From Acidobacteriaceae bacterium (lineage in GTDB: Bacteria; Acidobacteriota; Terriglobia; Terriglobales; Acidobacteriaceae): 61,943 bases of DNA. The position numbers and the translations under genes are program-made. The notes beneath the pieces are model-generated. The model was not told the DNA's origin. It worked only from the letters and a program-made list of their open reading frames with translations, and made no database searches. Location: NCBI GenBank assembly GCA_025355385.1, contig JANXZS010000031.1, forward strand, positions 1 through 61,943, read 5' to 3'. Within the stretch, counting starts at the first letter, position 1; every line of letters starts with the position of its first letter. Positions 25,174 to 36,578 of the stretch are shown here, in pieces.

Positions 25174-25893
25174 CTAGAACACAAAATTTGTAGCAAAGTC
25201 GAGGTGCAGACTGCGCGTAGAGATTGAGAGAACCGAACTCTGATGCAGCCCACTGGCCACGCTCAGTTTGAGCAGAGGGATGCCCCACACGTCGCCTATC
25301 TTCACGCTCGTGGGCATGGGGTCATGGCCTTCTGTGGACACGGTGGATGCCATGGCCGCGCGTTCGCTGATGCTTCGTCGGCCTCCGGAAAGGAGCATGG
25401 GGACCGCCTCCACCGCGGAGTTACGTGCCTCATGACCGTTTCCCGGTCGTAGCACGGCTATCAGCGTCAGCGGAAGCGTCTTCCCCCCGTCGCATTCGCC
25501 TTCGAAGTTCACAGCCACCTGGCTCACCTTTGACGTCGCTGAGCGCAGCACAGATTCTTCCACATGACCCTTGAGGATCGCGCCCTTGGGCACGTGGCAG
25601 TCTTTGGTCTGCCAGTCGTATACCATTTTTGCAAGTAGAGTATCGCCAGGCTTAACGTGGCTCGCGTTGAGAGTTTGCTGCAGTTCCGCCCAGATGCCCG
25701 AGGGAGCGTCGCCAGCCTTCACTGCATCAGCTTTGCTGGCCTTGTTGCCAGCGTGCCCGGGCACCGACAGGGAGAGGAGACAAACGCCCAGAAATACGCT
25801 GCGAAGAGGGCAGCATGCGAACACCGAATCTTTCAATGTTTCTGCGCGCACGCGAGCTTCCTCAGAGAGCAATTCCATCGATATTATGCTCAA
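25174..25893 (-). CDS. Unknown secreted protein
   Basis: This 239-residue protein has a signal-like segment (LRSVFLGVCLLSLSVPGHAG) after a charged N-terminus; the true start may be a later Met. The exported part has ASHVKPGDTLLAKMVYDW and CHVPKGAILKGHVEE, a pattern seen in secreted beta-rich proteins and in TrbI-like folds. It ends with LHLDFATNFVF before TAG. The next gene is in the same frame, starting four codons later. Function is unknown. Confidence 0.65.
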   Translation of the reverse strand: MSIISMELLSEEARVRAETLKDSVFACCPLRSVFLGVCLLSLSVPGHAGNKASKADAVKAGDAPSGIWAELQQTLNASHVKPGDTLLAKMVYDWQTKDCHVPKGAILKGHVEESVLRSATSKVSQVAVNFEGECDGGKTLPLTLIAVLRPGNGHEARNSAVEAVPMLLSGGRRSISERAAMASTVSTEGHDPMPTSVKIGDVWGIPLLKLSVASGLHQSSVLSISTRSLHLDFATNFVF

Positions 25894-26037
25894 TAATGAT
25901 AGCGAAGTGCGGTCTCTCTTGACAGAGGAGCCGCCCCGCTCTGGCTACGCTCGATCCGCCGAAGCGGAATTGCTTGACCGTGAAAAACGAGGATTAGCAA
26001 CCTGCGGCCGGGTGGGCCGGGACGTTGCGATCGTGGG

Positions 26038-26155
26038 CTAGAGCAGAAGCAGGGTTACTGTAAAGTGAGCTACAGATCGCTGCAGGCATTTTCATCAAGG
26101 AAATGCCTACATCGCTGACGCTGGATACATCACGCTATTCCCGCTTCTGCTCTAG
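26038..26155. repeat. 118-bp inverted-repeat element, copy 1
   Basis: The element starts and ends with CTAG and has terminal inverted repeats of about 17 bp (CTAGAGCAGAAGCAGGG against CCCGCTTCTGCTCTAG, 13 outermost bp perfect). An internal stem AGGCATTT/AAATGCCT is also present. It matches copy 2 at 35874-35991 over its full length without gaps, about 103 of 118 bases by hand count, including a 38-base identical block (26101-26138). The right repeat contains the TAG stop of the amidase gene. It has no coding capacity, so it resembles a MITE or a structured REP-like element. Confidence 0.85.
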
Positions 26156-28695
26156 TTGCCGGAAGCGCGCGGGTTCCCGATGGGCAGACGGACTCCAGAG
26201 AGCCCGCCAATATATTTGGACACACCGCGATACAGTGATTCGGCAATGCGCTGCCGGTAATTCGGATCCCGCAGTTCGCGGGCGTCGTCAGGGTTGGTGA
26301 GGAAGGAGATCTCGGCGAGGATCGATGGCATGTTCGCGCCGATCAGCACCACAAAGGGAGCCTTCTTCACTCCCCGATCTTTCAACCCGCGGTTGCCGTC
26401 CTCGAGGCCGCTGTACAGGCTTTGCTGCACATCGCCCGCAAACTCCCGCGACTCGTCGATTTTGTCCTTCAACGTAATCTTCTTCACCAGGTCAGAGAGT
26501 TGGTGAATGGACTGGTTCGAGACAGAGTTCTCTCTCGCGGCCACTTCGAGCGCATCCGGCGACGCGGTGAAATTGAGATAATACGTTTCCACACCCCGTG
26601 CGGTAGAGTCGTGGCTGGAATTTGCGTGGACGGAGATGAACAAGTCCGCCTGGGCCTTGTTGGCAATTGCTGTCCGTGTTTCGAGTGGGATGAAAGTATC
26701 GTCATCGCGGGTGTAGATAACGTCCGCGCCGAGGCGTTGCTTCAACAGCTTTCCCAATCGCAGTGCTACATCGAGGACAACTTCTTTTTCTTCAATCCCC
26801 TCAGGGCCCAGGGTGCCAGAGTCGTGGCCTCCATGTCCTGCATCGACCACGATGCGGCCAATCTTCAGCCCCAGCGCGCGGACGAGGGACCGCTGCCCAT
26901 TCGAAGCTGGCGTGGCCTCATGGGTGCTGCTGGCCAACGTATCCAAATCGGATGCACTACTCAACGGCTCTTCAGCGCGGCCTGTCGAGGAGCGCTTCCG
27001 CGTGCGCGACTTGCCTCCAGACAGGACCTCTGCCGGGTTAGTAGCAACTTGTTGCGGCGCGGGGGTGGTGCCTGCCACCGATGCTGAGATGGGTGCCGTG
27101 GTTGGGTGCGTCGTCGCTTTTACGCGATCCTCCTGCTGGCTGAGCGCGGCTACTTCGTCCAGGGAAGATGACTTTGTCTGGCCCGCAATTTTTTTAGGTA
27201 GAGTTTCAGGCGCGGCCTGCGTTGGAAAGGACGTTGGTCGCGTGGTCGATGTTGGGGACGAATCGGTTTCGGCCGGTGTTCCACGCGCAGAGGATAGAAC
27301 CCTGGTAGTCGATGGTTGTGGGTCGGAAGAAGTCGTCTGCCGCCTGGAAGCCGAGTTGTTAGACGACCCCATTGGACCACTGCTCAAAGGTTGCGGCGCA
27401 CTCGATGGCGCGGTTCCCCGGGCAGTCGTTCTGCCTGCGGGGGGAGTCGGATGGGGCACTGCGGCGATCTCGACCGGCGACGGAGAGCCAAACTTGCGTC
27501 CGTGAATATCAATGATCAGGCGATAGGGATTGGGCAACAGGAAAGCGGAGTAATCACTAACGTCGCTGACGTCGAGGACGATGCGGGTGACGTCGCTGGA
27601 GAATTGTGCCGCGCGAATCTTTTTCAGATAGCCGTCATCGGTTACTTCTACCGAGCGGCCGATTAACTCCGGCGAAAGCTTGACTCCGTGCAGGTCGAAG
27701 AAAATGCGGTCGGGGTTAGGAACCCGTGCCGCCTCATACTGAACCTCTTCATCCAGGTCGATGGCGACCCGCGTATAGACGTTGGTAGACCAATGGCGAA
27801 TGCTGGTGACGAGCGGAGGCTTGCCATGCCGAGGGCGTGCCGGGGTCGCAATCGATGTCTCGCTGCTGATTGCGCTGGCCTCGGGCCGAATTGGTCGCGG
27901 CAGAATAATCGCGGGGGCCGGTGCCGGCTTCGCTTTCGTCAGCGGTATTTGCGCGCTGGGGGGAGACGAAGGCGAGGTCTCATTCGCAGACTGGTCGGCC
28001 TTCCCGATGTGCTCCGTATTCATAGCGCCAATGCCACTTGTAGTCGCCGCTGGACCATCGTCGACTACTACTGAAGTGCTCTTTTTGGAGCGCGACAAAT
28101 GCTTCGCGGCAACTTCCTGGCCGCGCATCTCCTTCAATCCCTCGCGAGCCTGGTCGGCGAGCGGACTGTGCGGATAGGCCTGCAAAAACTGTTGATACTT
28201 TTTCTTCGCCTCAGACCTGTCGCCGATATCCCGGTGGTAGATGGCAGCCTCTGTTAGCAACGCATTCGCAGCCAGGCGGCTCGCAGGGTATTGGTGACGC
28301 AGGAACTCGTATTGGCCGATGGCATCGTGCAGTGCCTTGTCATTGTCAAAGACGCGACCCTCATCCGCTAACAGGTCAGCAACAGCAGCCACGCTGGCAT
28401 CGGCCTTCAAAGATGCGGGATTGCCATGATAAACGGCGCGGTAGGCCTCGAGTACACGTTCGTAATCCCGTCGTGTGCGCTGCTGTCGGTCGCGGCCGCT
28501 CAGCGCCTCGCGCATGCGTTGGGCTTTGTCGTAAGGGGAGAGAGGCGGCATTGCGCGGGCAGAAACGTGCCTCGTGGAACCTGCGGGGAGCAGCGGCGTG
28601 AGCATGCTGAGTGCGGCACCGAGAAGCAGGGCCCGAGCAGGGCGCGCTAGTGCAAGCAGGTACACGCACCCTCCGAAGCGAATGGCAAGTGGCAT
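26152..28695 (-). CDS. N-acetylmuramoyl-L-alanine amidase with TPR, AMIN and Amidase_3 domains
   Basis: This 847-residue exported cell-wall hydrolase begins with a signal or membrane segment (ARALLLGAALSMLTPLLPAG). TPR-like helices follow at about 75-190 (AKKKYQQFLQAYPHSPLADQA) and an AMIN domain at about 300-410 (VYTRVAIDLDEEVQYE). A long Ser/Thr/Pro-rich linker leads to Amidase_3 from about 610. Zinc ligands are His in VVDAGHGGHDSG, Glu in GIEEKEVVLD and His in FISVHANSS; the catalytic Glu is in ILAEISFLTN. It cleaves the amide between MurNAc and L-Ala during daughter-cell separation. The stop codon lies in the 118-bp repeat. Confidence 0.93.
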   Translation of the reverse strand: MPLAIRFGGCVYLLALARPARALLLGAALSMLTPLLPAGSTRHVSARAMPPLSPYDKAQRMREALSGRDRQQRTRRDYERVLEAYRAVYHGNPASLKADASVAAVADLLADEGRVFDNDKALHDAIGQYEFLRHQYPASRLAANALLTEAAIYHRDIGDRSEAKKKYQQFLQAYPHSPLADQAREGLKEMRGQEVAAKHLSRSKKSTSVVVDDGPAATTSGIGAMNTEHIGKADQSANETSPSSPPSAQIPLTKAKPAPAPAIILPRPIRPEASAISSETSIATPARPRHGKPPLVTSIRHWSTNVYTRVAIDLDEEVQYEAARVPNPDRIFFDLHGVKLSPELIGRSVEVTDDGYLKKIRAAQFSSDVTRIVLDVSDVSDYSAFLLPNPYRLIIDIHGRKFGSPSPVEIAAVPHPTPPAGRTTARGTAPSSAPQPLSSGPMGSSNNSASRRQTTSSDPQPSTTRVLSSARGTPAETDSSPTSTTRPTSFPTQAAPETLPKKIAGQTKSSSLDEVAALSQQEDRVKATTHPTTAPISASVAGTTPAPQQVATNPAEVLSGGKSRTRKRSSTGRAEEPLSSASDLDTLASSTHEATPASNGQRSLVRALGLKIGRIVVDAGHGGHDSGTLGPEGIEEKEVVLDVALRLGKLLKQRLGADVIYTRDDDTFIPLETRTAIANKAQADLFISVHANSSHDSTARGVETYYLNFTASPDALEVAARENSVSNQSIHQLSDLVKKITLKDKIDESREFAGDVQQSLYSGLEDGNRGLKDRGVKKAPFVVLIGANMPSILAEISFLTNPDDARELRDPNYRQRIAESLYRGVSKYIGGLSGVRLPIGNPRASGN

Positions 28696-34830: not shown

Positions 34831-35748
34831 TTGAGATTAAAGCGAAAGATCCTCGCGGTCGCATTCATGCTTGGTTTTCTTGGCTCAATCGGGGCCCGGG
34901 CGCAGAAGGATAGCTACACGCCCATGCCGGTCGAGTCCGGATTCGGAGCCATGGATACGAGTGCGCCATCTGGGCCGCCGGAGGAGATTATCCAGCACTT
35001 CGCTGCGAAAGAGAGCGAATTTCGCCATGCCCTGGACAACTACGTCTATCGGCGTTCGGTAAAGGTGCAAACGATGGACGATGGCAAGGTCGATGGGGAG
35101 TATCAAGAACTGGACGACGTCTCCTTCGACTCAAGTGGCAGGCGGATGGAGCATGTGCTCTTCGCGCCGCAGAATTCGCTGGAACGAGTGCAGATGAGCC
35201 CGGCAGACTTCGCTGATATCCAGCAGAGGCTGCCCTTTGTCCTCACTTCGCAGGACATCGCACAGTACAACGTCACCTACCTGGGCAAGCAGAAAGTGGA
35301 TGAGTTGCAGACGTATGTCTTCGATGTTGAACCTAAGGTGATGGAAAAGAACAAGCGCTACTTCAAAGGCCGCATCTGGGTCGACCAGACGGATCTGCAG
35401 ATCGTGGTCACCAGTGGCAAGAATGTGCCCGATGACACGCGGAAGGGACACGAGGATCTATCCCCGCCTTTCACTACTTACCGCGAACAGATAGATGGCA
35501 AGTACTGGTTTCCTACCTACACCAAGGCCGAAGGTGTCCTGCACTTTCAGGGTTGCAAGGGGTGCCTGTCGAACGATGTCCACATTCGCCAGGTGGTGAA
35601 ATACACCGATTACAAGCAATTCAAGTCCACCGTGAAGATCATCTACAACGGCGCGGACATTACCAACAATGGACAGCCTCAGGACGGAAAATCCCAGGAG
35701 GGAAAGCCGGCACCTGCCGCGGGAGCAGCACCAACTCCACCAAAGTAG
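34831..35748 (+). CDS. Exported LolA/outer-membrane lipoprotein-sorting-like protein
   Basis: The 305-residue frame starts at TTG with GGAG five bases upstream and a signal peptide (LAVAFMLGFLGSIGARAQ). The mature part has FAAKESEFRHALDNYVYRRSVKV, YLGKQKVDELQTYVFDV, KGRIWVDQTDLQIV and YREQIDGKYWFPTY. This alternating beta pattern is like LolA/RseB-type half barrels that bind acyl chains. It ends in a Pro/Ala/Gly-rich tail. Similar proteins are frequent and uncharacterised in Acidobacteria. It is transcribed away from the S9 peptidase gene. Confidence 0.7.
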   Translation: MRLKRKILAVAFMLGFLGSIGARAQKDSYTPMPVESGFGAMDTSAPSGPPEEIIQHFAAKESEFRHALDNYVYRRSVKVQTMDDGKVDGEYQELDDVSFDSSGRRMEHVLFAPQNSLERVQMSPADFADIQQRLPFVLTSQDIAQYNVTYLGKQKVDELQTYVFDVEPKVMEKNKRYFKGRIWVDQTDLQIVVTSGKNVPDDTRKGHEDLSPPFTTYREQIDGKYWFPTYTKAEGVLHFQGCKGCLSNDVHIRQVVKYTDYKQFKSTVKIIYNGADITNNGQPQDGKSQEGKPAPAAGAAPTPPK

Positions 35749-35873
35749 CGCAGGTCTGGCGTTTACATGATTCGACAGCGGGGTTGCCTAGAGACAAGTC
35801 TGTTGAGCGCGCACGAAAACTGCTCACCTTACAGAACATGGTTTCATTCGCCCTGTTGCGGTTCTGCTAGTGG

Positions 35874-35991
35874 CTATAGCAGAAGCAGGGTTCCTGTAAG
35901 GTGATCCACACACCTCTGCAAGCATTCTCATGAAGAAAATGCCTACATCGCTGACGCTGGATACATCACGCTATCCCTGCTTCTGCTTTAG
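35874..35991. repeat. 118-bp inverted-repeat element, copy 2
   Basis: It has the same length and orientation as copy 1. The terminal repeats CTATAGCAGAAGCAGGG and CCCTGCTTCTGCTTTAG match at 16 of 17 positions. The 38-base identical block is at 35937-35974. The right repeat supplies the TAA stop of the HNH gene. Just left of the element, TTCTGCTA at 35862-35869 forms an extra inverted match with TAGCAGAA inside its left end and may be a decayed end of another copy. Confidence 0.85.
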
Positions 35992-36578
35992 TAGTACAGA
36001 TACCTGCGCCACTTGGGGTCAGAGTGGCCGATCATCCGCATGATGTGGCGGCTGGTATGCAGGGAGAAGGGTCGCGGCTCGCGCAGCAGTTGCATGTCGG
36101 TCATCTCATGCAACAGGCGGTTGCCCTTGCTACGATTGCAGGCGTGGCAGCAGGCGACCAGATTCTCCCATGTGGAGAGCCCTCCGCGAGAACGCGGCTG
36201 CACATGATCGAGCGTCAGCTCTCCCGCAGGCAGGACGGCGCAGCAATATTGGCAGGTATTCCGGTCACGCAGCAGGATATTTTTTCGGGAGAGGGCGCGC
36301 GTTTGATGGGGGATGCGGCGATACTCAAGTAGTCGAATGACCGATGGCATAGCTATGTGGATGCGAGCGGCGTGCAGGAACGCTCCCTGTTCCTCCTCGG
36401 TCTTGGCCACACCTTTAAGCACCAGGACCAGGGCTCGGCGCGCGCCGCAGATGTTGATCGGCTCGTACGAGGCGTTCAGAACCAGCACCGGCGTCTGCAT
36501 GGTGGATGGCGCGCGGTACTCTTCCTGAACGACGACGTGGCACTTAGCGAGTGATTTCTGTTTACGAGCGTGGACCAT
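35988..36578 (-). CDS. HNH endonuclease
   Basis: The start at ATG 36578 has GGGA six bases upstream and gives 196 residues; ATGs at 36596 and 36500 are alternatives. The conserved start of the family, VLVLNASYEPINICGARRALVLVLKG, is present. The HNH core is LTLDHVQPRSRGG, then WENLVACCHACNRSKGN. CQYC and CCHAC pairs hold a structural zinc. Proteins of this type are common stand-alone genes in many phyla, with nuclease activity inferred from the fold only. The stop lies within the 118-bp element. Confidence 0.9.
   Translation of the reverse strand: MVHARKQKSLAKCHVVVQEEYRAPSTMQTPVLVLNASYEPINICGARRALVLVLKGVAKTEEEQGAFLHAARIHIAMPSVIRLLEYRRIPHQTRALSRKNILLRDRNTCQYCCAVLPAGELTLDHVQPRSRGGLSTWENLVACCHACNRSKGNRLLHEMTDMQLLREPRPFSLHTSRHIMRMIGHSDPKWRRYLYY

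Follow-up and report, generated by a model that had tools for sequence, protein, structure and literature searches.

Two short palindromic elements lie in the window, by which we mean the whole 61,943-nucleotide stretch of an Acidobacteriaceae bacterium analysed here, and they very probably belong to a family of MITEs that inserts at YTAR sites with duplication of TA, a degree of confidence that does not extend to the identity of the mover. The family is new, its kind is already known, and it is not a novel gene-end signal. Both copies in the window coincide with stop codons, a pattern that recurs throughout the genome and follows largely from the target sequence and the location of the insertions.

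The initial annotation had described a pair of 118-bp units, ungapped and about 87% identical, with terminal inverted repeats of about 17 bp, and this description is accurate. Positions 26038-26155 align without gaps to 35874-35991 with 87.3% identity over 118 bases, and the left end of copy 1, CTAGAGCAGAAGCAGGG, is alike to the right end, CTAGAGCAGAAGCGGGA when read from the right, at 15 of 17 positions. The mobile unit itself, however, appears to comprise 112 rather than 118 bp, the TA on either side being read as a duplicated target and the C and G beyond it as flanking DNA (Table 1). Its boundaries are common to the 87 copies aligned from the genome, whose flanks are unrelated, and inverted ends of the GAGCAGAAGCAGGG type, 14 bp in length, are present on both sides. 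Such fixed ends are typical of a MITE, as is a length of 112 bp, which is too short for encoding a transposase.

Table 1. Coordinates of the two element copies, their putative target duplications and the adjoining genes in the window
Feature	Position	Strand	Basis
Element copy 1 proper, 112 bp, imperfect palindrome over its full length	26041..26152	+	Common ends in the 87-copy alignment; fold z
Left terminal inverted repeat of copy 1, GAGCAGAAGCAGGG	26041..26054	+	Copy alignment
Right terminal inverted repeat of copy 1, GAGCAGAAGCGGGA on the minus strand	26139..26152	-	Copy alignment
Left TA of the putative target duplication, copy 1; preceded by target base C26038	26039..26040		TA and outer-base counts over 87 copies
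Right TA of the putative target duplication, copy 1; followed by target base G26155; bases 1-2 of the amidase stop	26153..26154		Copy alignment and stop reading
Element proper, copy 2 (112 bp), altered at its two terminal bases	35877..35988	+	Copy alignment
Left TA of the putative target duplication, copy 2	35875..35876		Copy alignment
Right TA of the putative target duplication, copy 2; bases 1-2 of the HNH stop	35989..35990		Copy alignment and stop reading
N-acetylmuramoyl-L-alanine amidase gene (Amidase_3, PF01520, and AMIN domains)	26152..28695	-	Domain matches
HNH endonuclease gene, stop now TAA	35988..36596	-	Domain match and stop reading

At least 87 copies reside in the 4.63-Mb draft genome of 321 contigs, a lower bound that includes two partial copies (C25:843-960 and C137:191-276), which were left out of the identity and pairing counts (85 copies) and kept in all others. 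With 40 of 99 BLASTN candidates scored, the unit was placed at no fewer than 40 sites on the matching strand, and a 23-base internal pattern allowing up to three mismatches was found at 85 places, compared to none for the reversed control. An HMM search over 410,475 bases of copy neighbourhoods yielded the 87, a set that included two copies found by their ends. The 85 average 88.1% pairwise identity (range 72.0-95.8%) and 93.5% identity to the consensus and contain no identical pair, which points to an old burst. The copies are now decaying, and nothing indicates that they have a conserved function in common. The 13-bp end with at most one mismatch occurs at 184 places, 160 of them within copy neighbourhoods (154 in the copies) and 24 elsewhere, where the reversed control gives 13, so there may be a few copies beyond the 87 or a partner whose ends match less well. 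A lone end-like sequence, TTAGAGCAAAAGCAGGG, was also observed at L119:1268-1284, where it has no partner and again coincides with the TAG that ends an open reading frame; an end-like sequence without a partner was noted in the C275 region.

As far as searched, the family appears private to the species. In BLASTN searches of 61 genomes, namely this one and 60 relatives including one species of the same genus, only the genome itself matched. When up to one mismatch is allowed, the 16-bp end is present at 145 places in this genome and at 0-3 in each of 398 other genomes of the class; 87 of the 398 have 1-3 such ends, comparable to the reversed-pattern control. Exact 13-bp end pairs 70-100 bases apart were absent from the genome-contig and viral-contig collections searched, from which this genome may itself be missing and in which such a spacing passes over a full-length partner. 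Two genome-contig matches with a single end, from Paenibacillus and Arthrobacter, have no paired end within 8 kb, and about two such matches are expected by chance according to our estimate. Plasmids and phages gave no match to the element.

A sister species of the same genus (G001) is syntenic across the window region at 78-82% identity, and both window sites are empty of the element there. A paralogous comparison is offered by the copy at C100:19971-20088, which interrupts a member of a second repeat family, whose ends are TTAGAGCA and CTAGATCG. At the corresponding site, an uninterrupted copy of that family at C195 has CTTCTAATCTGT, with TA present, and another at C77 has CTTCAAGTCTGT, with AA and no TA, while the right TA of the filled site reads TG; the TG in the filled site and the AA at C77 are taken as probable decay. 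The alternative that the pair is ordinary ancestral sequence is rejected in view of the 87 dispersed copies together with the empty sites in the sister species. The second family is MITE-like and older in its own right, with a length of about 120 bp (e.g., L101:1591-1712, corresponding to G000:C195:24757-24878) and 11 matches in its own genome, the 10 other places being 70-86% identical to the C195 one; none was found in G001.

The sequences at the ends of the 87 copies define the likely target. The four bases at the left and right ends read CTAG/CTAG in 36 copies, CTAG/CTAA in 13, TTAG/CTAG in five, CTAG/TTAA in four, and CTAG/TTAG in three, with 26 other combinations occurring once each, including a single CTAA/CTAA. 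TA is found at both ends in 69 of the 87, at a single end in 14, and is missing from both in four, so that 83 have it at one end at least, as would be expected of a MITE that duplicates its target. The simplest reading is that the target is YTAR, mostly CTAG, of which the 2-bp TA would be duplicated around an element with G...C ends. A 4-bp duplication of CTAG was considered and rejected on the outer-base pairs: duplication of TA is preferred because the outer bases mostly vary on one side at a time, the 36 CTAG/CTAG copies being compatible with both. The 18 copies without TA at one end or more, and the 12 sites that are no longer YTAR, are read as probable products of decay. There is also an asymmetry of the target, with A in the right flank of 25 of the 87 and T in the left flank of eight despite a nearly palindromic element, which counts against the explanation as given.

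The claim that the right repeat end provides the stop codon of the amidase gene was correct in its reading, the TAG at 26152-26154 consisting of the target TA and the terminal G of the element. It applied in part to copy 2, for which the stop of the HNH gene does lie at the element boundary and reads TAA (TTA on the plus strand, 35988-35990) rather than TAG because the terminal base of this copy differs. Neither stop was created by the element, since in the sister species, which lacks it, the orthologous genes end at these positions or close to them. The G001 amidase orthologue ends two residues earlier, also with Gly-Asn-stop (TAA), and the HNH orthologue stops at the corresponding codon in the alignment, there a TAG within CTAG.

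The same comparison was made for 10 of the 36 stop sites in the genome, those of the longest called genes with the window amidase included. Nine had an orthologue in G001: in five of these the final residue coincides, and in the other four the ends differ by one or two residues. For three of the nine, the alignment at the DNA level broke off before the last codons, and residues were counted instead. Insertions therefore appear to have mostly struck existing gene ends with no noticeable truncation of the genes, and two sites at which the orthologue is two residues longer could be small truncations. The stops of the nine orthologues are TAA in four, TAG in three, and TGA in two, and the last two, having no TA, count against insertion into the TA of a stop.

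The bias to stops was examined genome-wide by joining the flanks across each insertion and calling genes on the joined sequence, which gave 362 genes and 87% coding DNA; these are hexamer-based calls, distinct from an annotation, over the 400 kb in which the copies lie, and the unoccupied YTAR sites used as controls belong to that DNA too. In 36 of the 87, the insertion site is the TA of a stop codon, 44 sites are intergenic and off a stop, and seven lie in called coding sequence, several of these being weak gene calls or close to a gene end. The initial pattern is thus neither limited to two copies nor free of a bias to stops. When the 75 copies with an intact YTAR are counted, occupied sites amount to 36 of 118 at stop codons, five of 867 in coding sequence, and three of 75 in intergenic DNA between divergent genes. 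Read in the orientation of the gene, the 36 stops are CTAG in 22 cases, TTAG in nine, and CTAA in five, with none having G or A before the TA. At the element boundary, the stop is now TAG in 32 and TAA in four, window copy 2 among the latter. The gene lies to the left of the element in 17 cases and to the right in 19, showing no orientation bias.

These distributions can be accounted for by a simple sequence of events, the steps of which are deduced from the sequences. A DDE transposase acting in trans would recognise the 14-bp ends, and the 112-bp unit would enter the TA within YTAR, mostly CTAG, with duplication of the TA. Copies are few in coding sequence and in divergent intergenic DNA, presumably through selection, whereas an insertion at a TAG or TAA stop preceded by C or T would be harmless: the duplicated TA together with the terminal G of the element (at the other end, its C on the opposite strand) would rebuild TAG. 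The occurrence of 36 of the 87 copies at gene ends could be explained because such insertions would rebuild the stop in either orientation. Most of the stop bias can be ascribed to the YTAR target, the scarcity in coding and divergent-promoter DNA, and this rebuilding of the stop from TA and G, and so the insertion preference at gene 3′ ends that had been proposed from the two window copies is real as a genome-wide bias and mostly explained without a preference as such.

A modest excess at stops remains beyond target and location. Compared to all other intergenic sites with stratification by tetramer, stops show an odds ratio of 3.5 (p 3.6e-6). Compared to those intergenic sites that lie no more than 100 bp from the 3′ end of a gene, the odds ratio is 2.4 (36 observed and 26.8 expected, p 0.006), and this 3′-proximal comparison gives 2.3-2.5 (p 0.005-0.009) across six gene-calling settings in all. 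Restricted to CTAG sites, it is not significant (22:13 versus 33:33, p 0.29). We consider it improbable that stops serve as a safe harbour in either orientation and that their excess relative to YTAR sites equally close to gene 3′ ends is due to true targeting (through access linked to translation or transcription, for instance) rather than to selection alone, and the residual excess makes targeting a testable question.

The placement at gene ends could also be understood if the palindrome were a transcription terminator or a stabiliser of mRNA 3′ ends that is selected there, in line with the suggested role in 3′-end processing or termination. Both window copies fold strongly on both strands (z -4.3 to -8.2; -5.5 and -6.6 for the 118-bp unit of copy 1), and the stop sites with their residual excess after matching would fit such a role. 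The strong fold of the two copies is nevertheless expected because long palindromes all fold so, and the variation among copies does not point to a selected structure. Rates of change at paired and unpaired positions in the 85 copies are 0.068 and 0.060 on one strand and 0.065 and 0.066 on the other. Double changes at predicted pairs number 24 and 22, where 19.6 and 19.9 are expected if changes are independent, and 11 and 9 of them keep the pair; single changes break a pair in 329 of 457 and 345 of 467 cases. No terminator-like site, that is, a G+C-rich hairpin with a T run, occurs around either window copy (25850-26350 and 35740-36240), the orientation at stops is balanced (19:17), and the 44 intergenic copies lie away from stop codons. 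No Rfam family reaches its gathering score at either window copy, three tRNAs being the sole families in the window. A role for the element in 3′-end processing or termination is therefore unsupported by compensatory changes, terminator-like sites at the window copies, or orientation bias; a selected RNA shows no sign and is not supported, and the terminator or stabiliser explanation is very unlikely.

The mover of the MITE family is probably, with moderate confidence, a transposase of the IS5 family, IS427 type. A resident 893-bp IS5-family insertion sequence (NCBIfam transpos_IS5_3) with two overlapping reading frames was found at C61 (L157:933-1825). Its ends are GAGCCTGTTATGAAGTT and GCGCCTGTTATGAAGTT (GAGC.../...GCGC), flanked by C-TA and TA-G, and an IS5/IS427-type mover is favoured because the habit of inserting at TA in CTAG and the first base G are shared with this insertion sequence. 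The similarity to the MITE ends goes just as far as GAGC, which counts against the assignment in a comparison confined to resident elements. Weaker IS5-like fragments are present at C53 and C174, the C53 one lacking such ends. In the 321-contig draft, from which a collapsed repeat could be missing, no autonomous element with the ends of the family was found: of the 145 near-exact 16-bp ends, 142 fall within copy neighbourhoods, where 141 belong to the 87 copies, and three lie outside. Many known MITE families have no autonomous partner that has been found.

Duplication of TA is expected of an IS5/IS427-type mover and of an IS630/Tc1-mariner derivative alike, and the same MITE might have been moved by an IS630/Tc1-mariner transposase, a possibility that we regard as rather unlikely. 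IS630 prefers TA in CTAG, and two DDE_3 (IS630) matches are resident in the genome. TA duplication by IS630-family elements is stated in the accessible part of PMC2170065. Both DDE_3 matches are, however, partial, perhaps remnants, and have no matching ends of their own; within 3.3 kb around either of them, the sole such end is part of a regular MITE copy close to the C312 fragment. The only resident insertion sequence with placeable ends, a CTAG target, and TA duplication is the IS5-family one at C61.

A further explanation invokes REP/BIME-like or TIR repeats spread by RAYT or TIRYT (IS200-like Y1) transposases, whose termini would give the TAG stops. In the portion of PMC3733652 available, GTAG REP termini are described as often supplying a TAG stop, and Acidobacteria as carrying Y1 transposases flanked by TIRs. 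Two Y1_Tnp genes are indeed resident (L175:1350-1998 and L176:1806-1960), one on C68 and one on C137. However, the C68 gene lies between inverted repeats of another kind, the CCCACGTCTC type, the C137 gene is separated by about 850 bp from a tandem array whose 38-bp unit is of that type, and neither locus resembles the element above chance; no Y1 gene flanked by the element was found. The element itself carries inverted repeats at its two ends together with a TA duplication, with no one-ended GTAG tag as in REPs. As the resident Y1 loci carry other repeats unlike the element, the RAYT/TIR reading was rejected, and we consider it very unlikely.

The MITE family described here may serve as a clean high-copy case in which target sequence, end chemistry, and purging would together place a selfish element on stops with no function needed. 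It thereby offers a useful null model for repeats, such as REPs and MITEs, that seem to provide stop codons. The statement in the initial annotation that no named element has this sequence agrees with our searches of a set of open papers, which did not extend to ISfinder, although its kind, the MITE, is known and TAG-supplying termini are in print according to the accessible part of PMC3733652.

Among known systems, the nearest named case found is MITEPsy1 of Pseudomonas syringae, which is described in the available portion of PMC3189936 as a 100-nt element with inverted ends and a CTAG or YTAA target that was shown to transpose. It is listed there as IS5 with a question mark, but it has a 4-nt duplication, six copies, and unrelated ends, compared to TA and at least 87 copies in our case. 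IS427-group members of the IS5 family have 2-bp duplications in 10 of the 11 rows among those listed in the part of PMC3281130 consulted; they are about 830-890 bp long and encode a transposase (as with the C61 insertion sequence), whereas the present element has 112 bp and none. RUP of Streptococcus pneumoniae, as far as the accessible text of PMC3049150 describes it, is comparable in length (about 107 bp) and in abundance (110 copies in the genome examined), and its past proliferation and slow present movement are similar to what the element suggests; RUP ends resemble those of IS630-Spn1, whereas no same-ended partner was found here. Finally, the GTAG REPs with RAYT and the TIR repeats with TIRYT, in the available account of PMC3733652, are high-copy palindromes 3′ of genes whose termini give TAG, as in the present family, and differ from its two inverted ends and TA duplication in that GTAG REPs have a one-ended tag and a Y1 transposase. 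The stop-codon pattern thus has, on that account, a precedent in another class of repeats.
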